DNA of 64,000 nt from Pediococcus claussenii ATCC BAA-344 (GTDB lineage: Bacteria > Bacillota > Bacilli > Lactobacillales > Lactobacillaceae): NCBI RefSeq assembly GCF_000237995.1, contig NC_016605.1:1302001-1366000 (forward strand). Reading direction: 5' to 3'. How positions within the stretch are numbered: the stretch's first letter is position 1; every line of letters starts with the position of its first letter. The position numbers and the translations under genes were made by a program. Positions 39,265-62,102 of the stretch are shown in pieces. The notes beneath the pieces were generated by a model. It was not told the origin of the DNA. It did no database searches and saw nothing but the letters and a program-made list of their open reading frames with translations.

Positions 39265-39316
39265 AAGATATGTTCCTCCATTTTTTTATTTCCAAATACT
39301 CTTTGGAAGCACTTTT

Positions 39317-39338
39317 AGTATAATTGAAAACGCTTGCA
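39317..39338 (-). promoter_or_regulatory. pduA promoter -10 element with overlapping cre-like site
   Basis: TGAAAACGCTTGCA (39325-39338) differs from the CcpA consensus TGWNANCGNTNWCA at one base. On the minus strand it lies directly upstream of TATACT (39317-39322), where the -10/-35 spacer would be. No good -35 hexamer is seen 17 bp upstream of TATACT. This suggests activator-dependent transcription with catabolite repression; both points are inferred. Confidence 0.6.
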
Positions 39339-39430
39339 ATTTATTAAGTAGTTCATTTTAAATATCCACATCGAAACACACTAATATGACAATTTATTTT
39401 TAAAATGACAAAATTAAACAAATTAAATCA

Positions 39431-39496
39431 AAAAGCACAGTAATATTGATTTTGATTTACGAATATTTCGTCTCAAATCAACATTACTGTGCTTTT
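39431..39496. terminator. Strong terminator between pduV and the pduA promoter
   Basis: Two 22-nt arms (39431-39452 and 39475-39496) are complementary apart from one pair, containing AAAAGCACAGTAAT and its mate. T-rich DNA follows on both strands. It ends the cobalamin gene series 16 bp past the pduV stop and insulates the pdu promoter. Confidence 0.85.
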
Positions 39497-39511
39497 AATA
39501 AAAAAATAACA

Positions 39512-39955
39512 TTATTGAATATTAGAATTATCTAGAAAATCTTTAAAATCTGTCACACCTTCATTGTTCAATGCGGATACTTTAAAAATCTTTTTCACAC
39601 CCGCACTACGAAGTCTTTTTTCAATCACTTCTACTTCGGTATTAGATTTTGCTAGATCCATTTTGGTAATCACACCAATTACTGGTCGTCCAAACATCGT
39701 GCTAAATGCCTCTGGAAAAATTAGCCGCGGGTCGCTAATGCTTTGCAATATCACAATTATGCCAGCGTCCATTGCAGTAGTTGCAATATTTGTATACATA
39801 CGCCGGTGCTCAATATATTCCCCGGGTGTATCAATCACGTTGTCATAATACTCTACCGACTGAGTCTTATTATAATGTATTTCAATATTATTCATTCGTT
39901 GCAATAATGTTGTTTTACCGCAGCCAATTGGTCCAATAAACATTGGTCTTCGCAA
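39512..39955 (-). CDS. pduV: PduV/EutP family GTPase-like protein
   Basis: A 147-residue small GTPase-like protein. I chose the TTG at 39955, 6 nt after GAGGTG, giving the standard MRRPMFIGPIGCGKTT start; the longer frame to 39982 adds nine odd residues. Walker A is GPIGCGKT, the switch region has DTPGEY, and TKMD is the guanine-specificity motif. PduV is linked to microcompartment positioning through PduU in Salmonella. Here it is the last gene of the cobalamin series rather than a member of the pdu operon. Confidence 0.88.
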   Translation of the reverse strand: MRRPMFIGPIGCGKTTLLQRMNNIEIHYNKTQSVEYYDNVIDTPGEYIEHRRMYTNIATTAMDAGIIVILQSISDPRLIFPEAFSTMFGRPVIGVITKMDLAKSNTEVEVIEKRLRSAGVKKIFKVSALNNEGVTDFKDFLDNSNIQ

Positions 39956-40082
39956 AGCATCCACCTCTTTTAAATGAAACAATTTCTTTTATGAATAATA
40001 TCACTACTTTTTAGCATAATTTTATTATGACTAGAATCTCACAAAAAAATACAAATAATTATCAAAAAAATGTCAACTATTC

Positions 40083-41126
40083 TTATTTTGTAAATTCAAA
40101 ATTCAAATCATCTGTTGTATTCATGCCTTGCAAAATTGCCTGCATTGCATCAATCATTGATAATAACAATACTGCGCCGCTGCCTTCTCCAACTGCTAAG
40201 TCAAGATTAAGAACCGGTTCACAATCTAATAGATTCAATGCTTGTTTTGCGCCTGGTTCACGTGACAAGTGTGATGCAATCAGATAACCAACCGAGTTAG
40301 GATTGATTTTTTGAGCGAGTAATGCTGCTACATTTGCAATAAATCCGTCCATTATCAATGGCACTCCTTGTTCCGCTGCCTTAAGAATCGCACCACACAT
40401 TGCACCAATCTCAAATCCACCTACCTTTGCTAGCAAGTCAACAGGATCATCTTGATTAAAGGATCGTTTACGCAGAGCCTCATTGATAACTTGAATTTTG
40501 TGCTTAAATCGTTTTGACGAGATATTAGATCCCGCTCCAACAATTAACTCGGTAGGAAGTCCCGTAATTGCCGCCATTAACGTTGATGCAGTTGTAGTAT
40601 TTCCAATCCCCAATTCTCCAATTAATAACAACTGTGCTCCCTCCCTCAACTCTTTTTCAGCAACTTCATATCCGACTTTTATCGCCTTCACTGCTTCTTG
40701 CCGTGACATAGCATTTTCTTGGAGGAAATCCTTCGTACCATCACTGATTTTATGATTAATGATTTTTTTACTTGCTGGAAGACCATCAACGCCAACGTCA
40801 ATAACTGTTACCTTACACCGATTTTGATGAGCCAAAACAGCAACCGTTGTGTGACCGTTAATCGTATTAATTGCTTGCTTGCTAGTCACTTCTCTTGGGG
40901 TCGCTGAAACTTGTTCCCGCTCAATTCCATGATCCGCAGCAAAAACTAAACAGGTCCGACGATCAACCTGAATATCCAAAGTTTCCTGAATTGATGCAAT
41001 TTTAGTTACCATTCTTTCGAGATTTCCTAGACCCCGTTGTGGTTTTGCCAGCCGGTCTAACTTATCTTGCATTTGTTGCCCAACAATTGGCTTGACCGCT
41101 TTTATTGTAATTTTGTTTAAGTCCAT
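40083..41126 (-). CDS. cobT: Nicotinate-nucleotide:lower-ligand base phosphoribosyltransferase
   Basis: A 347-residue CobT that transfers phosphoribose from nicotinate mononucleotide to the lower-ligand base (dimethylbenzimidazole, or adenine for pseudocobalamin), forming the alpha-riboside phosphate. Motifs include FAADHGIEREQVSATP, GELGIGNTTTAS and the C-terminal GEGSGAVL with the catalytic Glu. Its ATG lies 3 nt after the stop of the LanM-like gene, so the two are translationally linked. Confidence 0.95.
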   Translation of the reverse strand: MDLNKITIKAVKPIVGQQMQDKLDRLAKPQRGLGNLERMVTKIASIQETLDIQVDRRTCLVFAADHGIEREQVSATPREVTSKQAINTINGHTTVAVLAHQNRCKVTVIDVGVDGLPASKKIINHKISDGTKDFLQENAMSRQEAVKAIKVGYEVAEKELREGAQLLLIGELGIGNTTTASTLMAAITGLPTELIVGAGSNISSKRFKHKIQVINEALRKRSFNQDDPVDLLAKVGGFEIGAMCGAILKAAEQGVPLIMDGFIANVAALLAQKINPNSVGYLIASHLSREPGAKQALNLLDCEPVLNLDLAVGEGSGAVLLLSMIDAMQAILQGMNTTDDLNFEFTK

Positions 41127-41129
41127 ACG

Positions 41130-43592
41130 TCAGTCATCCCATCCTACTTTACAAAATAATAAATCCGCATTTCCTGTTTGCTCTGCAAGCAAATAATATT
41201 GCAATCCAGCATATCCAACTCCCCAAGTTTCTCCAAGCACCCGTGGATTTTTTGCATCAATTCTAGCCATCAATTCCCGTTTTTTCTGTTCTTTCTTTTT
41301 ACCATAGTAATCTAACCGTTTTGCAACTAAAAGTTTGCCTATCAATCCGTTCTGAATCGAATCATTTTTAGTAGGCACCTTAAACGCCTGTTTACCCCAT
41401 GCCTTTTTTAAATATTCTTCTAGATAATTTGAACTTTTAATACTACTCAAGTTAACTAATAAAACACCCTCACGAACGCTTCCACGAATTGGATAATTAA
41501 TATTCCTGGGCAAATCTCTTCTATCAACAATCTTTCCTAAACAAATTACAATTAATTTTTTTTCAATTCGAGACTTAACTTTCTTCACATCAAATTGCTT
41601 TTTAAGCATAACAAGTAATTTCGAACATTGTTTTTTAAAATCCGTATGTGCTGCTAACTGAAAAACAATCCAAACTAACGACCCTGCACCTTCAAAGAAA
41701 CTCCAATCCTGGATCAATAATTCACTGTGTAGCAATTCATTTAAAATCAAATGCATCTGCTGTATTGCCCACTTTGATTTGAGGTGTGCAAGAACTAAAA
41801 GATAAGCCCCAACCCCGTTATAACCACTGAGTAGGCCCTCAGCGATTAACTGTTCAACTGGATACATTTCCAGAACAGTTTTTAAGGTTCGTTGAACTAA
41901 ATCGGTATTATTTCTATCAGAAAACAATAAAATATTTTCAATCTCACCTAAACCGACCCATAAAGAACAATCAATCGGTGCCATTATTAATCGTTGATCC
42001 TCATTGAACTGTGATATGAACAAAATACTATGTTCAAAGTCCATTTTAAAAATTCGTTGCTTAACATTCGTTATGTCACTTGTTACCTTTGCTTGTGCAG
42101 GCGATTCTTCTAATGTTTTCAGTGCACACCTGATTAACTCAAGCTGTTGATCAATTTGAAATGGTGTAATTTTACTAACTTGAAAAATTAAATAATTAAT
42201 ATCTTTTTCGTTAATTTCACATTCTTGGTAGGGAATATCATAGTTTTTCAAATCGGTCAAAATTTTTTGATTATCCAAGTTGCTAAATTCAACCTGCATA
42301 CCAATTAAGCCATTTACTTGCTCCATTGAAGTTGCATACTTGGGATGTGTCATATTTCCTTGCAATTTCTTATAAAAATCGGACGAAGCCACAAGTTGAC
42401 GGCTGTAAGTACCGTCAAGTAATCTTTTTACTTCTGATAAATGTTCCTGTATAAACTGGACACCAATAATAAATCCCTGATTAATTACCTTCTGATACCT
42501 AACCACCGGTTCATTCTTTAACTCTAAATCATTTTTAATAATCCGTTTTTCCGTGAAATCAAAACGAAGATTATCCGTTCCTAAATCTACTAACTGATTT
42601 ACTTTTATGTATTGTTCTTTACTACCTCTAAAACCGGAATAGTCAATCGTTTCGTTGTAAAACTTAATATGGAGTGGTAAAAGTAGACTGCCAAGCACAG
42701 AATCCCGAATAAAATTGCTGTAACAGTCACCAATTTTCTCAGACGACTCATCTGAAATTTGATTTGTCATCAGATTTTCAAGATCAATAACTCTGATTCC
42801 CTGTGCAGTTTGCAATACATTTCCATTATGCAAATCTCCAATTTTAAATAGCCAAGCCCATGCAGCGAGTATTCCAAACTCATAATAATATTCTGAAGGT
42901 GAGCCCTTAAATTCAGACTGATTAATATATTCTTGCCAACCGTGCAAATCAACCGTAATTGACTTTACACCGACCAGTTTGGTTTTCTTCCCACTTTTTT
43001 TATTCAGCAGTCCTAACATCTTTTCAAAGAAAATATCGTTATTTAAACGATGTGGTTTATATACAATTTTACCAAAACTAGTGATAATCACTAACACCTT
43101 CTGTGCACCATTTCTAGTGTCATTACGTTGGTAATTAAAATCTTCAATTCTAAGTTGGCTTCCAGTACAATTCAGAATTTTTTGACCCAATTGAAAACGA
43201 TCAGAATCAAAATCTTCGAGAACACTTCCGCCAAAATTAATAATCATAGGAATTCTTCGCTTTATTAGGCCATCTAGGTATGCATACCGCTGCATAAACT
43301 TCGCAACATATGATGAATTAATTTGACTACAAAAATGAATTAAGCATTTTGTTGAACCTTCCTGAAAAGTTAACTGCCCCGTTGTTCTCATTTCAAATTG
43401 CTTAAATTCGTAAACCAATGCGCGTCTACATATTGTATCAATTTCAATCATTATTTCATTCATCATGGTTTCCTGTAATCGCATTGGCTTAACTAACAGC
43501 GAGTGATGTTCCCATATCATTTGATGTAATTTATCTAAATATTGTTCCGCAACCACTGCGGAAAATTTGGAAAATACTAGCTCATTTTTCAT
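41130..43592 (-). CDS. LanM-like class II lanthionine synthetase homologue with degenerate cyclase
   Basis: An 820-residue protein, shorter than usual LanM (about 900-1100). The dehydratase (DUF4135, kinase-like) core is recognisable: D158 in a DTRNGA segment, Lys179 in VYKPH, D253-L-H255-x-x-N258 (GDLHNGN), D270 in VIDLENL, and R398. Two family positions are changed: the His of the D-x-H pair is R160, and the Thr after the C-terminal Arg is S404. The C-terminal region (about 585-820) keeps LanC-like helices (GYNGVGAYLLVLAHL; GVGYAGLQYYLL) but lacks the zinc ligands. The CHG motif reads QNG at about 747-749 and the WC(x)G site has no Cys. The upstream 45-residue peptide gene is the probable substrate. 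GAGGG precedes the ATG. Dehydratase activity and lack of cyclization are inferred. Confidence 0.82.
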   Translation of the reverse strand: MKNELVFSKFSAVVAEQYLDKLHQMIWEHHSLLVKPMRLQETMMNEIMIEIDTICRRALVYEFKQFEMRTTGQLTFQEGSTKCLIHFCSQINSSYVAKFMQRYAYLDGLIKRRIPMIINFGGSVLEDFDSDRFQLGQKILNCTGSQLRIEDFNYQRNDTRNGAQKVLVIITSFGKIVYKPHRLNNDIFFEKMLGLLNKKSGKKTKLVGVKSITVDLHGWQEYINQSEFKGSPSEYYYEFGILAAWAWLFKIGDLHNGNVLQTAQGIRVIDLENLMTNQISDESSEKIGDCYSNFIRDSVLGSLLLPLHIKFYNETIDYSGFRGSKEQYIKVNQLVDLGTDNLRFDFTEKRIIKNDLELKNEPVVRYQKVINQGFIIGVQFIQEHLSEVKRLLDGTYSRQLVASSDFYKKLQGNMTHPKYATSMEQVNGLIGMQVEFSNLDNQKILTDLKNYDIPYQECEINEKDINYLIFQVSKITPFQIDQQLELIRCALKTLEESPAQAKVTSDITNVKQRIFKMDFEHSILFISQFNEDQRLIMAPIDCSLWVGLGEIENILLFSDRNNTDLVQRTLKTVLEMYPVEQLIAEGLLSGYNGVGAYLLVLAHLKSKWAIQQMHLILNELLHSELLIQDWSFFEGAGSLVWIVFQLAAHTDFKKQCSKLLVMLKKQFDVKKVKSRIEKKLIVICLGKIVDRRDLPRNINYPIRGSVREGVLLVNLSSIKSSNYLEEYLKKAWGKQAFKVPTKNDSIQNGLIGKLLVAKRLDYYGKKKEQKKRELMARIDAKNPRVLGETWGVGYAGLQYYLLAEQTGNADLLFCKVGWDD

Positions 43593-43607
43593 TTTGCCCT
43601 CTAAAAT

Positions 43608-43647
43608 AAGCCATTTACAACTAGCGTTAATTAGCTGAAAACGGCTT
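43608..43647 (-). promoter_or_regulatory. Intercistronic hairpin between the peptide gene and the lanM-like gene
   Basis: In minus-strand RNA, AAGCCGTTT pairs with AAATGGCTT, then a 1x1 mismatch, then CAGCTA pairs with TAGTTG around an 8-nt loop. Two pairs are G-U and hold only in the coding-strand RNA. A U-rich tail (ATTTTAG) follows. This resembles the partial terminators that favour precursor over modifying enzyme in lantibiotic operons. Confidence 0.65.
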
Positions 43648-43677
43648 TGTAAGTATTGAAATGAATGTTACAACTAC

Positions 43678-43815
43678 TTATTTCGATGCAGTTGTCATCT
43701 TAAGTCCGGAAGTCGTGGTAATTCCACTAGTCATCATTGCAGATGTCATTAGATTCTGAGACTTATTCATTTCATTATTACTTGTTAATCCACTTAATTT
43801 TTCCAATTCTGTCAT
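43678..43815 (-). CDS. Candidate RiPP precursor peptide, 45 aa, Ser/Thr/Met-rich, no Cys
   Basis: An ORF of 45 residues with a very strong ribosome site (AAAGGAGGTGA, 43821-43831, 5 nt before the ATG), 24 nt after the cbiK-like stop. The N-terminus (MTELEKLSGL) is leader-like: acidic and amphipathic. The C-terminal 23 residues contain 11 Ser/Thr and four Met, with the central part MMTSGITTTSGLKMT. There is no cysteine in the whole peptide and no GG or GA leader-cleavage motif. It sits directly before a LanM-like gene with a hairpin between, the standard layout of a class II precursor. No homologue is known to me. Product probably dehydrated (Dha/Dhb) without thioether rings; inferred. Confidence 0.75.
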   Translation of the reverse strand: MTELEKLSGLTSNNEMNKSQNLMTSAMMTSGITTTSGLKMTTASK

Positions 43816-43839
43816 GTTAGTCACCTCCTTTCAAAAATA

Positions 43840-44616
43840 CTAACGACTCACTTCAACCACCCGTTTTAAATTTGAAATAAACTTATTTTGAACAAACTCA
43901 TATTCACCCAATCCAATCAACTGGCCGGTTGTTTCAAATCCGCCGTCCATCAGCATCTTATTCCAAGTTCCCTTTTCCCCTGAAACAATGTCTTTACTAG
44001 CATGAATGCCGGCAACGAGCATTAACGGGTAAAGATGAACCCTTTGAATGTTTTTTATACGCATTCGTTGCATAATTGAGCCTAAATCGGGATAACTTTC
44101 AACGGTTCCTACAAATGAATTAGTATCAAGCATCATATAATCTAGGGTGGTATGTAAAATGAAACGGTTACTCTTAGCGGTGCCGTGACCAATAAATAAG
44201 TTTCCTTCATCCAACTTTAAATCACCGACACTATTCAAAAAAATGGCAAAGTCTTTAAAGTCATTAACTGTGGTTAATAGTGGATCTCCAAAAACAATTT
44301 TTTGAAAATCTGCATCATATCCGTGAATAACCGTTTGCAATTTTGCTAAATCGTTGCTTTCTGTCAGATACAATGGTTCAACATATAATTCTCGGCATTC
44401 CTTTTGCTTCAGTTTTTGAATAGCGTCATCAAGATACTCAATGTTTGTATGCTCCTGATTACTAATCTTATCCATCACTTTGCGAGAAGTAAAAGCTCCT
44501 TGTACCAAAAAATCAGGAAACTGTTCCTTTGCTTTCTTTATAATTTTATTGGTTGTAGCTTGTCGCGCCTTAAGACTAGTTGTTCCAAAAGTAACGACTA
44601 AAATTCCTTTTTTCAC
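43840..44616 (-). CDS. Second CbiK-type metallochelatase, divergent
   Basis: A 258-residue class II chelatase paralogue of cbiK. The three residues corresponding to the metal-binding His/Glu/His of Salmonella CbiK are kept (H144, E173, H205). Surrounding pocket segments differ: the conserved LHIIxGxE segment reads LYLTESND, AAYACLDHM reads LHTTLDYMM, and AGDHAxND reads AGIHASKD. Its start overlaps the cbiL stop by 4 nt, and it is followed after 24 nt by the peptide gene. Likely binds a tetrapyrrole and a metal, but the substrate or metal may differ from cobalt and sirohydrochlorin. It could also be a duplicate cobaltochelatase under relaxed selection. Confidence 0.8.
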   Translation of the reverse strand: MKKGILVVTFGTTSLKARQATTNKIIKKAKEQFPDFLVQGAFTSRKVMDKISNQEHTNIEYLDDAIQKLKQKECRELYVEPLYLTESNDLAKLQTVIHGYDADFQKIVFGDPLLTTVNDFKDFAIFLNSVGDLKLDEGNLFIGHGTAKSNRFILHTTLDYMMLDTNSFVGTVESYPDLGSIMQRMRIKNIQRVHLYPLMLVAGIHASKDIVSGEKGTWNKMLMDGGFETTGQLIGLGEYEFVQNKFISNLKRVVEVSR

Positions 44617-45317
44617 TTATCCTTACCCTCTTTTTTAATTAGCATCGTGGTAAAGTATGGCAAATCCTCTGTTCCATCACAATCCTGCAAATTAATTACT
44701 TGTTCCGTTTCCATTGAAGCATTTGAAATTAAGTATGCTTGATCCAATAATGCACTGTCTTTGAGAAACGCAAACAGTTTCGGATAGTTAATTGCCACCT
44801 TCATCACAACAATATTCTCACCAATTTCAATTAACTGTTCTAGGTGCACTTGCTTAGTATTGGCTGGAACTACAATCAAACTTTCATCATCCAGCATTAA
44901 TGGCATTTTCGATATCGCAGCAATCTGCGAGAATGATGAGATACCGGCAATAATTTCAATTTTAATTTGATCATCTACCAATTCCTGAATGTAGCTAAAT
45001 GTGCTATAAACCGATGGATCTCCTAATGTTAAAAATCCAACGTTCTTACCCTGTTTTACATCTGTGACCATTTCTTGTGCAATCAAATTCCAACTTTTTC
45101 TTTTTTCATGCCAATTATTCGTCATTGGAAATTTACGTTTCTTAACATCAATTTCTTTTGGGATATACTGATCTGCGATTCGAAATGCCGTACTTGGTTT
45201 ATTATTTCGAGCTGTCGGCGTGTATAACACATCTAATAGCTTAATTGTTTCAATTGCCTTTACGGTGAGTAACTGCGGGTCTCCTGGTCCAACTCCGATT
45301 CCAAATAACTTACTCAT
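44613..45317 (-). CDS. cbiL: Cobalt-factor II C20-methyltransferase
   Basis: A 234-residue SAM-dependent tetrapyrrole methyltransferase acting at C20 in the anaerobic pathway. I chose the ATG at 45317 (protein MSKLFGIGVGPGDPQLL), with AGAGGTGG just upstream, overlapping the cbiK stop. GVGPGDPQLLT and LTLGDPSVYST are the family SAM-site motifs. Assignment to CbiL rather than other methyltransferases rests on the TPTARN segment after the N-terminal motif and position next to cbiK. Confidence 0.88.
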   Translation of the reverse strand: MSKLFGIGVGPGDPQLLTVKAIETIKLLDVLYTPTARNNKPSTAFRIADQYIPKEIDVKKRKFPMTNNWHEKRKSWNLIAQEMVTDVKQGKNVGFLTLGDPSVYSTFSYIQELVDDQIKIEIIAGISSFSQIAAISKMPLMLDDESLIVVPANTKQVHLEQLIEIGENIVVMKVAINYPKLFAFLKDSALLDQAYLISNASMETEQVINLQDCDGTEDLPYFTTMLIKKEGKDK

Positions 45318-46095
45318 TTTCCACCTCTCTGATAGCTTGTCTAACATGCTTAACAAAAAGCTTTTGAATTGTTTCGGATTCCCCTAAGCCTTTCAATTCT
45401 GACTCTACAGTAAATCCTTCTTTTTTTAACTTAGAAGCCCATGAATTTTCATTGCTTGAAGCCATATCGTTATTGGCGTGATCCCCTGCCACTAACATAA
45501 ACGGAATCATAGTTACCTTTTCCATATGATCCCGTTTCAATCTCTCAATTTCATCCTCAATTGTTGGATAACCTTCAACTGTTCCAACATAATGCTGGGT
45601 TTCTAACAACATGTGATCTAAACATGCGTATGCCGCAAAAGCCTCTTTAGAATCAGTACCGTGTCCCATAAACAAAACTGCTTCATCCAATGCTAGACTC
45701 TTCTGCTGTGCTAAATAGTTTGACACCGTCCGATAGTCAGTAAAATTATCCAGTAGAGGACGTCCCACTGAGATTTGACTAAACTGATTTGCAAAGATAT
45801 CTGCTTGTTCTAAAACTAATTGAAATTCATGTCCGGGAATAATATGAAGAGGTTGAATAATCACTTTTTGATATAATTGTTGCGTTAATTCTTTCAAAAC
45901 TTCGTGTAATGTTGGGACTGTAATTCCTTCATTAGCTTTAATTCGCTTTATTACAATATTTGATGTAAATGCTCTAAATATGTCGTATTCACTAAAATAA
46001 TTTTGGATAGCCTGTTCGGTTGCTAAAATATCTTTTTCGCGAGCTTCTTTAAAAGTTGTCCCAAAACTAACAACTACAATTGCATTTTTACTCAT
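45310..46095 (-). CDS. cbiK: Sirohydrochlorin cobaltochelatase
   Basis: A 261-residue class II chelatase that inserts cobalt early in anaerobic cobalamin synthesis. H145, E174 and H206 match the Salmonella CbiK metal ligands at nearly the same numbers. IIQPLHIIPGHEF and AAYACLDHM are conserved as in the enterobacterial enzyme. It lies directly after the cobA-hemD gene. A divergent second copy follows cbiL. Confidence 0.94.
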   Translation of the reverse strand: MSKNAIVVVSFGTTFKEAREKDILATEQAIQNYFSEYDIFRAFTSNIVIKRIKANEGITVPTLHEVLKELTQQLYQKVIIQPLHIIPGHEFQLVLEQADIFANQFSQISVGRPLLDNFTDYRTVSNYLAQQKSLALDEAVLFMGHGTDSKEAFAAYACLDHMLLETQHYVGTVEGYPTIEDEIERLKRDHMEKVTMIPFMLVAGDHANNDMASSNENSWASKLKKEGFTVESELKGLGESETIQKLFVKHVRQAIREVENE

Positions 46096-47492
46096 TTGTT
46101 ACCTCCAAATCTATCAACCACTGTGTCAATCGTAATTTCAGAAAGTTCTTTAACATTTCTAAATCCCTGTTCTCGTAGAAAACTAGCCCTGTCCGCCGAT
46201 TCGACAACTATTTTTATTTTTGACCATTCATTTGGCCAGTGTAACCTCAAAAACGAGACCACATTATCTACTGAACTAAGATTAGTTATCAACATAGTAA
46301 CGTCAGCATCACCATAATCTAAATCGTCACTACGGGGTGTAATACCGATTTGAATAATGTTTTTTACCGATGCACCATACTTAACTTCATTTTCGGCAAC
46401 TAAACTGCCATCTTCCGCTCCAATGTCCGCCATGGGGACTACCCGGTCAACTGCAATCATTTTTTGAGCCAAATATTCTGCCAATTGCTGAGATGTTGCC
46501 ACTATTTCACTTTCGCTGAAACGACGCATATCAACTCCTTGTTGAGTAACGAAATCAATGAAGAGGTCACTAGCAACGTGATTATCAAAAATTAAACGAT
46601 GCTGTTTAACTAGCATACTTAAATTCAGTCGGTCAGCCTGATATTGGTAGTCATCGCTAAAGGTTAAAACTCCAGCTCCCTGACCTCGTAATTCATCAAT
46701 TAAATCCTTATTACCGCCCGCTGCAATTATAAAGCGTTGATGATCCATTTTTTTTATTCGAAATAGTTCTTCGTGCAATTGAACAACATTTCCGATCGCA
46801 ATAATACTGGGCGAAGCAACATGTTGTTCCTCAACAATGTCTTCAATGTTTGCTAATGAACCAAACACAGATTTTTGACGCCACTGAGTTGCCCACTGAA
46901 TAATTGCAACTGGACAATTCTTATCTTTGCCATTTTTAACTAATTCCGACACAATGAACGGTAAGTTCTCCATTCCCATTAAAAATATTAGAGTACCTTC
47001 CATTTGGGCTAAATTCGCCCAGTTTAAATTACTTTGGTCACCCTTTAAATGAGCAGAAATTATATGTACACTAGAGGAGAAGTCTCGATGTGTGGCCGGA
47101 ATATCAACCGCAGTAAGTCCGCCCAGTGCACTTGTTATTCCAGGCACCACTTCAAAACTAACGTTATTTTTAATCAGAAATTGTGCTTCCTCGCCTCCCC
47201 GTCCAAAAATAAACGGATCACCAGCCTTAAGGCGTACTACCTGTAACCCTTGCTTAGCTAAGTCAACTAACATTTGATTAGTCTGTGACTGTTTAACAAG
47301 ATGATGATGAGGTAGCTTACCAACATCAATTAGCTTGGCACTCGAATTTGCCATCGAAACAATACTTGGATCCACTAGACGATCAAAAAGAATCACATCC
47401 GCATTCATAATCTTCTGTTGTGCTAACCCGGTTAGCAGGTTGGGATCTCCTGGCCCTGCACCAACTAACGCCACTTTTCCAACCTTTGCCAT
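46092..47492 (-). CDS. cobA: Uroporphyrinogen-III methyltransferase fused to a HemD-like domain
   Basis: A 466-residue fusion, from the ATG at 47492 (the longer frame to 47600 overlaps cbiJ with unlikely sequence). Residues 1-250 are a SUMT (CobA/CysG-A) domain: [42 protein letters not shown]. It makes precorrin-2 from uroporphyrinogen III. Residues 250-466 look like a weakly conserved uroporphyrinogen-III synthase domain. A separate hemD is present at 58704, so the fused domain may be redundant. CobA/HemD fusions are known in lactobacilli. Confidence 0.88.
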   Translation of the reverse strand: MAKVGKVALVGAGPGDPNLLTGLAQQKIMNADVILFDRLVDPSIVSMANSSAKLIDVGKLPHHHLVKQSQTNQMLVDLAKQGLQVVRLKAGDPFIFGRGGEEAQFLIKNNVSFEVVPGITSALGGLTAVDIPATHRDFSSSVHIISAHLKGDQSNLNWANLAQMEGTLIFLMGMENLPFIVSELVKNGKDKNCPVAIIQWATQWRQKSVFGSLANIEDIVEEQHVASPSIIAIGNVVQLHEELFRIKKMDHQRFIIAAGGNKDLIDELRGQGAGVLTFSDDYQYQADRLNLSMLVKQHRLIFDNHVASDLFIDFVTQQGVDMRRFSESEIVATSQQLAEYLAQKMIAVDRVVPMADIGAEDGSLVAENEVKYGASVKNIIQIGITPRSDDLDYGDADVTMLITNLSSVDNVVSFLRLHWPNEWSKIKIVVESADRASFLREQGFRNVKELSEITIDTVVDRFGGNK

Positions 47493-61376: not shown

Positions 61377-62102
61377 TCACCGCTTCATTCGTGCAATATA
61401 TTTTAAATCTGGAAAGTTGTCCTCTACCTCAGTGCGATCAACATTGGCGCTAACTACAAGTAAAACGGTTGAGGGACCTGCCGATAAATTTAAATCAGAC
61501 TTTGTTTTAACTATTGAATTCAATTTGTATTCCTTCGCTAAAACAGAAATTTCATGACCAATTCCCTGTGATCCAACTGGGATCATGTCACAAATCAAGG
61601 CATCGTTACGAATTTCTAACGCACGTTTTACCGTAAACACTTTATCCAAACTATTGAGGACGGCTTCTCCAACTAACGGAGTACCCAATTGAAAAACTGC
61701 AAACTCCGCGCCTTTAATTTGTTCCTTAGGTTTCGCTAATCCATTTGCTGTAACACTAACCGAGGTAAGATCAATTTTAAGATTATCTTCTGTACTACCG
61801 TTAATTGGAATTTGATCATATCCGATTTCATTTAAGTCCGACTGCAAACGTTTAATTACTCGTTCACCATTCGGAAGGAATTTTAAACTTAGATCATCAA
61901 TGATACTAATCGGCGTCGCACCATAAGCAATTAGTTCCAATAATGTAGTTCGTAAGGTGAAAGAAGCCGTAGTTTCCAATGAACAGTGAATTAAATCATT
62001 GGCCATTTCACCAAATCCAGAACTAATATCCGTGCTTGTTACTAATTCTTGTTCCTCATTCAGCGAAGTGATTGTTAAATCTCGATATCGATAACTTTTC
62101 AT
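61377..62102 (-). CDS. PurM/AIR-synthase-like protein, candidate alpha-ribazole kinase CblS
   Basis: A 241-residue protein with an AIR-synthase-type pattern: DISSGFGEMANDLI, then ELIAYGATPISIIDDL, and a C-terminal GSQGIGHEISVLA segment. Small proteins of this kind in Firmicute cobalamin loci include CblS, which phosphorylates alpha-ribazole from salvage. Location between hemL and cobU, with a CblT-like gene in the same series, supports this. No PurM purine context exists here. Assignment is moderate; an unrelated ATP-dependent function is possible. Confidence 0.6.
   Translation of the reverse strand: MKSYRYRDLTITSLNEEQELVTSTDISSGFGEMANDLIHCSLETTASFTLRTTLLELIAYGATPISIIDDLSLKFLPNGERVIKRLQSDLNEIGYDQIPINGSTEDNLKIDLTSVSVTANGLAKPKEQIKGAEFAVFQLGTPLVGEAVLNSLDKVFTVKRALEIRNDALICDMIPVGSQGIGHEISVLAKEYKLNSIVKTKSDLNLSAGPSTVLLVVSANVDRTEVEDNFPDLKYIARMKR

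Follow-up and report, generated by a model that had tools for sequence, protein, structure and literature searches.

Within a 64,000-nucleotide (nt) stretch of Pediococcus claussenii ATCC BAA-344 (contig NC_016605.1, positions 1,302,001 to 1,366,000; hereafter the window), three minus-strand genes lie inside the cobalamin (vitamin B12) operon between cbiL and cobT. They encode a second, diverged CbiK-type chelatase (CbiK2), a 45-amino-acid (aa) peptide rich in Ser, Thr and Met, and a protein resembling the class II lanthipeptide synthetase LanM. The original prediction called these genes a LanM-type cassette for a ribosomally synthesized and post-translationally modified peptide (RiPP). The gene set is real and unusual. 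It is, however, a cofactor-operon set whose LanM homologue has no cyclase site, and had been over-read as a lanthipeptide cassette. The features of the locus are as follows.

41130..43592, minus strand: lanM-like gene, 820 aa (DUF4135 E 8.3e-65, fold match, residues)
43678..43815, minus strand: gene for the 45-aa Ser/Thr/Met-rich peptide, putative LanM substrate (composition, coding score)
43821..43831, minus strand: ribosome-binding site AAAGGAGGTGA of the peptide gene (sole exact match within the 64-kilobase (kb) window)
43608..43647, minus strand: intercistronic hairpin of 9+6 base pairs between the peptide gene and lanM (folding of a 98-nt stretch)
43840..44616, minus strand: cbiK2, diverged second CbiK-type chelatase (Pfam CbiK, PF06180, 192.4 bits)
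44613..45317, minus strand: cbiL, C20 methyltransferase (NF004059 277.5 bits against a cut-off of 274; ATG start taken, with a TTG at 45356)
45310..46095, minus strand: cbiK1, the usual sirohydrochlorin cobaltochelatase of the operon, orthologous to the lone CbiK of other Lactobacillaceae (Pfam CbiK E 6e-84)
ending at 46092, minus strand: cobA, start not fixed
40083..41126, minus strand: cobT, the following cobalamin-operon gene (Pfam DBI_PRT E 1e-115)

Read downstream, the order is cobA, cbiK1, cbiL, cbiK2, peptide gene, hairpin, lanM, cobT and pduV, and open reading frame (ORF) coordinates and sequence show the cassette frames to be intact. The pduV gene was assigned by Pfam, and the ORFs beyond it are presumably pduA and so forth. 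Packing is tight. The end of cbiL (44613) overlaps the GTG start of cbiK2 (44616) by 4 nt, 24 nt separate the end of cbiK2 (43840) from the peptide ATG (43815), the peptide stop (ending at 43678) lies 85 nt from the lanM ATG (43592), and lanM (end 41130) is 3 nt from the cobT ATG (41126). The overlap and the 24- and 3-nt spacings had been given correctly in the original prediction, and its description of three intact genes packed inside the cobalamin operon holds. The cassette is probably co-transcribed with that operon. Codon statistics, trained on 22 window genes that included cobT and cbiK1, favor the annotated frames of lanM (0.225 bits/codon), cbiK2 (0.283) and the peptide gene (0.257), with the other five frames all negative; cassette scores are slightly weaker than the 0.325-0.381 of cbiK1, cbiL and cobT. 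G+C content is 0.34 for lanM and the peptide gene, 0.405 for cobT and 0.397 for cobA, with cbiK2, cbiL and cbiK1 between (0.354-0.362); that of the window is 37.5%.

Judged from its sequence, the LanM-like protein is a genuine class II lanthipeptide-synthetase homologue, but an aberrant one. Its DUF4135 domain spans residues 103-457 (219.8 bits), and the whole-LanM model TIGR03897 gave 202.9 bits against a cut-off of 304, with the match ending at residue 651. Over nearly the whole length, the predicted structure matches LicM2 (E 2e-22) and CylM (E 5e-20), with a template-modeling score of ~0.6 and a root-mean-square deviation of 8.7-9.4. The AlphaFold model has a mean predicted local distance difference test score of 73.5. 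Ten-residue means are mostly 80-96, some 52-77, in the kinase half and 31-80 in the cyclase half, and the latter is so poorly modeled that the state of its toroid fold is unsettled. Domain and fold agree with the claim that a real class II homologue stands beside a Ser/Thr/Met-rich peptide.

Residue conservation was assessed in an alignment (A3) of the protein with 18 of 25 LanM ORFs from 15 loci of named genomes. The seven ORFs outside it were incomplete, split, interrupted by unread bases or simply not taken; checked afterwards, they agree at every position they cover. Numbering omits the start Met, which is also excluded from the invariant counts. We take the phosphorylation residues of CylM to include K274 and E366. 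The kinase residues K178, D252, H254, N257, D269 and E271 are all kept, and are present in 18/18 A3 LanMs. For the elimination step, D157 and R397 are kept and two residues are changed (H159R, T403S). All four are present in 18/18 A3 LanMs, and the His and Thr also occur in all 10 other LanMs of a second alignment (A1); A1 misaligns the first zinc Cys in several rows, and zinc counts are from A3. The zinc ligands are replaced (C701I, C746Q, H747N) and the His of the AHG motif falls in a gap, each being present in 18/18 A3 LanMs. By halves, the protein keeps 14/18 invariant positions of the kinase half, having lost H159R, P265I, T403S and E442K, and 7/15 of the cyclase half, all Gly. When each of the 18 was left out in turn, it kept all but 0-2 positions per half.

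According to the sections of the CylM study drawn on here, D347, H349, N352 and D364 serve phosphorylation, and D252, H254, R506 and T512 are all important for phosphate elimination, with T512A giving no elimination and H254A only slowing it (PMC4550811). At the latter four positions the present protein has D, R, R and S; CylM was absent from the alignment and its columns were matched by motif, and a LicM2 alignment pairs the same residues. Such a residue set would make phosphorylation possible, elimination doubtful and zinc-dependent cyclization unlikely. Class III enzymes are described as cyclizing without zinc (excerpts of PMC10604976), a route of no help here because the peptide offers no Cys.

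The peptide itself (MTELEKLSGLTSNNEMNKSQNLMTSAMMTSGITTTSGLKMTTASK) contains 16 Ser/Thr and 6 Met among 45 residues, with 11 Ser/Thr among the last 25, and the core Cys of a lanthipeptide precursor is absent (0 Cys in 45 residues). Precursors of this type are further recognized by a GG/GA leader cleavage motif and an adjacent exporter or protease gene. The peptide has no GG or GA, and no exporter or protease gene was found beside the cassette, the neighbors being cbiK2, lanM and cobT. Searches found no second copy of the peptide in its own genome and no family match in Pfam, NCBIfam, PHROGs or PADLOC. With neither Cys nor a GG/GA site in the peptide, and without an exporter gene alongside, no lanthionine can form. 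An ordinary lantibiotic cluster is ruled out by the missing Cys, zinc site and adjacent exporter. The label of a LanM-type RiPP cassette, insofar as it implies a lanthipeptide, is not supported, given the missing zinc ligands and peptide Cys and the two changed elimination residues; the absence of zinc site and Cys had been overlooked. Position, composition and ribosome site, and these only, point to the peptide as the putative LanM substrate.

That ribosome site had been described as near-perfect. The description stands in that the only exact match to AAAGGAGGTGA in the window precedes this gene; matches with one mismatch allowed number three, no more than chance, since 16/100 shuffles reach as many. 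The hairpin between the peptide gene and lanM, also noted previously, is present: the 98-nt stretch folds at -21.4 kcal/mol (z -2.6), and 4/200 shuffles fold equally well. A role as terminator was rejected, as a terminator scan placed no site there and the three terminator-like sites within 39300-46200 all lie elsewhere.

CbiK2 is, as had been proposed, a true second CbiK-like chelatase (PF06180 192.4 bits against a cut-off of 26.2), and it matches the Salmonella CbiK structure 1qgo at E 6e-28. Both catalytic His (Salmonella His145 and His207), a pair whose role in CbiK is covered in parts of PMC7689651, are kept. Alignment with 24 others, namely CbiK1 and the CbiKs of 23/25 Lactobacillaceae loci (two were dropped by a motif filter requiring both His motifs), showed that 47/68 near-invariant positions are kept and that the HxIPGxE stretch is lost, reading YLTESND. 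The NF047852 model is uninformative, since both CbiK2 (174.7 bits) and CbiK1 (283.7) score below its cut-off of 400. The best non-self match of CbiK2 is a Lactobacillaceae CbiK at 40% identity, and its best-scoring match outside its own genome in the phylum sample is at 33%; CbiK1 is 41-55% identical to the CbiKs of the 25 other Lactobacillaceae loci. In a tree of 57 CbiKs, the end branch of CbiK2 measures 1.84 against a median of 0.25. A split with support of 100/99 separates CbiK2 from the 29 phylum rows without placing it among the other 28, and its branch is long enough to mislead. From its sequence, CbiK2 may be either a specialized enzyme or a decaying one.

Recurrence was sought in overlapping sets of relative, family, order and class genomes. 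The negative results below apply to the samples and flanks covered, and the genome sets may omit records near the source genome. Counting the source genome, LanM matches occurred in 3/60 relatives and 6/397 family genomes (E <= 1e-3), 7/395 order genomes (E <= 1e-15) and 2/319 class genomes (E <= 1e-20); all non-self matches were 21-28% identical and covered part of the protein only. Two wider contig scans yielded 24 pattern matches without a relative (the first, with this LanM as single query) and 15 loci with a best identity of 28% (the second), and none of 59 records from a plasmid search covered 80% of the protein. Within the genus, CbiK matches were confined to 1/12 genomes, as were CobT matches, the source genome in each case. 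In the family sample, 26/397 genomes had CbiK (E <= 1e-10), and only the source genome had two.

The original prediction proposed looking for LanM-like genes near cbiK. Hidden Markov model (HMM) scans of stop-to-stop ORFs of at least 60 aa (E <= 1e-5) found no LanM at 25 Lactobacillaceae CbiK loci (1.5-kb flanks), in 18 larger cob clusters (18-19 kb, from 18 of the same 25 genomes) or at 29 phylum CbiK loci (1.5-kb flanks; restricted to the top-scoring sites among 59 matching genomes). The reverse scan found no CbiK at 15 LanM loci (flanks up to 6 kb). A cassette conserved across B12 producers was rejected, as neither the trio nor the LanM-CbiK pair occurred in any of the sampled sets. The trio's presence in a single genome with disrupted frames had been named as what would speak against the idea; within the samples searched the occurrence is single, and the frames are intact.

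Of the 25 other Lactobacillaceae clusters, 18 served for a comparison of gene order; the names cbiM, cbiN, cbiQ and cbiO are taken there from ORF size. In 14/18, cbiK-cbiL is followed by four ORFs sized as those genes and then by an ORF of about 500 aa. The exceptions are L059, with its first ORF split; L062 and L063, in which the small ORF was unlisted at a cut-off of 110 aa and, in L063, the next ORF is larger; and L057, which goes straight to the 500-aa ORF. None of the 18 contains the cassette. In the source operon, the cassette and then cobT come after cbiL, and CbiM, CbiQ, an ATP-binding cassette (ABC) ATPase and a CobQ-type protein are encoded at the opposite end (Pfam). The cassette thus sits where gene order departs from kin. 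On its own this position favors neither a working nor a decaying cassette, and it makes chance capture plausible. The claim that the cassette is co-expressed with B12 synthesis rather than a passing insertion was not borne out in its second half, given the lack of recurrence and this position. The operon as a whole (window 40083-63881 plus adjoining contig stretch L044) is block-rearranged relative to kin: the block running from cbiM to hemL precedes cobU-cobS and the cobD-cbiL block and does not follow cbiL, with several names assigned by size or memory.

The source genome comprises nine contigs and 1,978,793 bases. The strain's plasmids are listed as pPECL-1 to pPECL-8 and its G+C content as 37.0% in the portion of the source used (PMC4394401), and pPECL-6 is described as carrying a plantaricin C-type locus (PMC6107846, in part). 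An 18.8-kb contig (C7) matches plasmids carrying a plantaricin C-type cluster, and the matching plasmid record encodes a peptidase-domain ABC transporter. This contig encodes a LanM with both the WC and the CHG zinc motif; an ordinary and an aberrant LanM thus coexist in one genome. A plantaricin C-like origin of the cassette LanM was rejected, the plasmid LanM being just 26% identical over partial length. A phage or defense origin was likewise rejected: PHROGs gave one match for LanM at E 0.14 and none for the peptide, and PADLOC nothing at E 0.01.

We tentatively favor the view that a working, repurposed LanM-peptide pair, accompanied by a duplicated and diverged CbiK, is tied to the P. claussenii B12 operon. 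A class II synthetase, a precursor-type peptide and the extra CbiK would have been built into the operon and given new work. The strong ribosome site followed by the hairpin would yield much peptide and little enzyme. LanM would bind the N-terminal half of the peptide and phosphorylate its Ser/Thr-rich C-terminal half at several sites, with phosphate elimination slow or nil and no rings made. The outcome would most likely be a linear Ser/Thr/Met-rich peptide bearing phosphates, dehydrated residues or both. With neither an exporter nor a protease gene next to the cassette, it would probably remain intracellular. Most speculatively, its tail rich in Met and phospho-Ser/Thr might assist CbiK2, and the two together handle cobalt or a tetrapyrrole as B12 is made, for example in Co(II) buffering or delivery. 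The fullest version of this proposal, a lantibiotic synthetase turned dedicated multi-site peptide kinase whose intracellular cobalt- or tetrapyrrole-handling phosphopeptide works with a specialized CbiK as the first ribosomal modified peptide of the cobalamin pathway, is a long shot. If the genes function, a LanM scaffold was recruited from ring-forming antibiotics into primary cofactor metabolism, the locus is a natural test of the LanM kinase step used alone, and a RiPP-type peptide is linked to cobalt or B12 handling.

Several points weigh against a working pair. Location is the whole of the case for a cob-linked function, and without recurrence in the sampled genomes evolution offers no proof that LanM acts on the peptide or that the cassette has a B12 role. 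The low identity of LanM to its best matches (only 21-28%) and the very long branch of CbiK2 are what decay might also produce. Nor are additional CbiK-family genes uncommon in themselves: 13/58 other phylum genomes with a match carry at least two. Finally, Ser is chemically able to replace Thr, and elimination by CylM is only slowed when the His becomes Ala; dehydration of the ordinary kind may therefore continue.

A reading that we consider somewhat unlikely, yet the most serious competitor, is a relic in slow decay: a stray lantibiotic fragment (precursor gene and lanM) and a duplicate of cbiK would have become trapped at a cob rearrangement point. The encoded proteins would be inactive, and the frames would stay open only through the polar effect on cobT of any frameshift or stop. 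Such a relic would explain a cassette placed where gene order departs from that of 18 other Lactobacillaceae clusters, the loss of the LanM active site, the CbiK2 branch, the single occurrence in the samples and the missing exporter or protease gene. It fits poorly with 820, 258 and 45 stop-free codons of gene-like, if slightly weaker, usage, with the retention of the kinase residues and both CbiK2 His, and with the unevenness of loss, which has left 14/18 positions in the kinase half against 7/15, all Gly, in the cyclase half. The window's only exact AAAGGAGGTGA site, in front of the peptide gene, is also unexpected of a relic. Were the cassette a relic, it would document operon polarity sheltering useless genes.

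Two further explanations keep the LanM-like protein active. We think it improbable that the product is a Cys-free, dehydrated linear peptide rich in dehydrobutyrine and dehydroalanine, serving as an extracellular bacteriocin or signal, co-expressed with the B12 genes and exported by machinery encoded elsewhere, such as the plasmid plantaricin C exporter. In favor of this role are the kept kinase residues, the two of four elimination residues that are kept, and the plantaricin C-type plasmid, which encodes a separate LanM and, going by the matching record, an ABC transporter with a peptidase domain; the two changed elimination residues, the peptide without GG/GA site, the cassette without exporter or protease and the biosynthetic-operon location speak against it. 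Low probability also attaches to a LanM-like protein that works peptide-free as a regulator or general Ser/Thr kinase, the small ORF being unrelated. CA_C0082 of Clostridium acetobutylicum, the nearest precedent, also lacks the zinc motif and is presented in the parts of its report used here as an effector of Agr signaling dispensable for Agr peptide production (PMC10301443). The same source has CA_C0082 homologues lacking or only partly conserving the phosphorylation and elimination residues, in an organism without other lanthipeptide genes (PMC10301443). The present protein, by contrast, retains its kinase residues, and its gene comes directly after that of a Ser/Thr-rich peptide with a strong ribosome site.

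With class II LanMs such as CylM and LicM2, among the closest known systems, the LanM-like protein shares DUF4135, a near-full-length fold match, the kinase residues and the Gly skeleton of the LanC half; it differs in its 820-aa length, its TIGR03897 score below cut-off, two changed elimination residues, lost zinc ligands and AHG His, a Cys-free partner and no adjacent exporter. Cys-free class II RiPP peptides exist, one peptide of bicereucin among them, and involve a LanM-type enzyme acting on a Ser/Thr-rich ringless peptide, as here. Those systems have an exporter and a protease, plus reductases where D-residues form, none of which occurs in this cassette. The CA_C0082-type Clostridium proteins have in common with ours a missing zinc motif and a non-lantibiotic locus; in the excerpted account they are 670-728 aa long, are encoded beside agr and have kinase residues missing or partly kept (PMC10301443). 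By contrast, this LanM has cob neighbors and not a place downstream of agr, a peptide gene beside it and its kinase residues kept. CbiK2 shares family and His pair with Salmonella CbiK (1qgo) and FetB (9b86, named heme-binding in the PDB), and departs from its CbiK kin in the change of HxIPGxE to YLTESND and a far longer branch; the FetB entry suggests that CbiK homologues can have other roles. At the level of titles and abstract openings, no report linking LanM or a RiPP with cobalamin genes was found among the papers listed. A paper on the P. claussenii transcriptome in beer mentions a lantibiotic only for pPECL-6, and its main text, as far as covered, does not contain 'cobalamin', 'cbi' or 'lanM' (PMC3765258).

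Some neighboring features of the operon deserve mention. Riboswitch control was rejected: across the 82 kb of the pdu-cob region formed by the window and the next 18 kb, no Rfam family, the cobalamin riboswitch included, attained its gathering score. At L044:7547-8662 (plus strand), about 7.5 kb past the window end, the gene for a regulator of the AraC type adjoins the NicO metal transporter gene at the head of the cob operon; the DNA-binding part of the regulator is PocR-like (NF047788 83 bits, well below the cut-off of 500), and its C-terminus is a DUF4430 domain (E 8e-11). We take DUF4430 to be related to the transcobalamin C-terminus, and this regulator might sense B12. Between hemL and cobU, a 241-aa ORF (61377-62102, minus strand) stayed below the Pfam cut-offs (AIRS at E 0.019) and matched nothing in NCBIfam at E 0.01; it has a 34% match in one other cluster, L057. 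An energy-coupling factor transporter S component (PF12822; 57160-57675, minus strand) with a weak NCBIfam match to the FolT family lies inside the cob operon, presumably flanked by cobD and a PduO/CobO-like gene.

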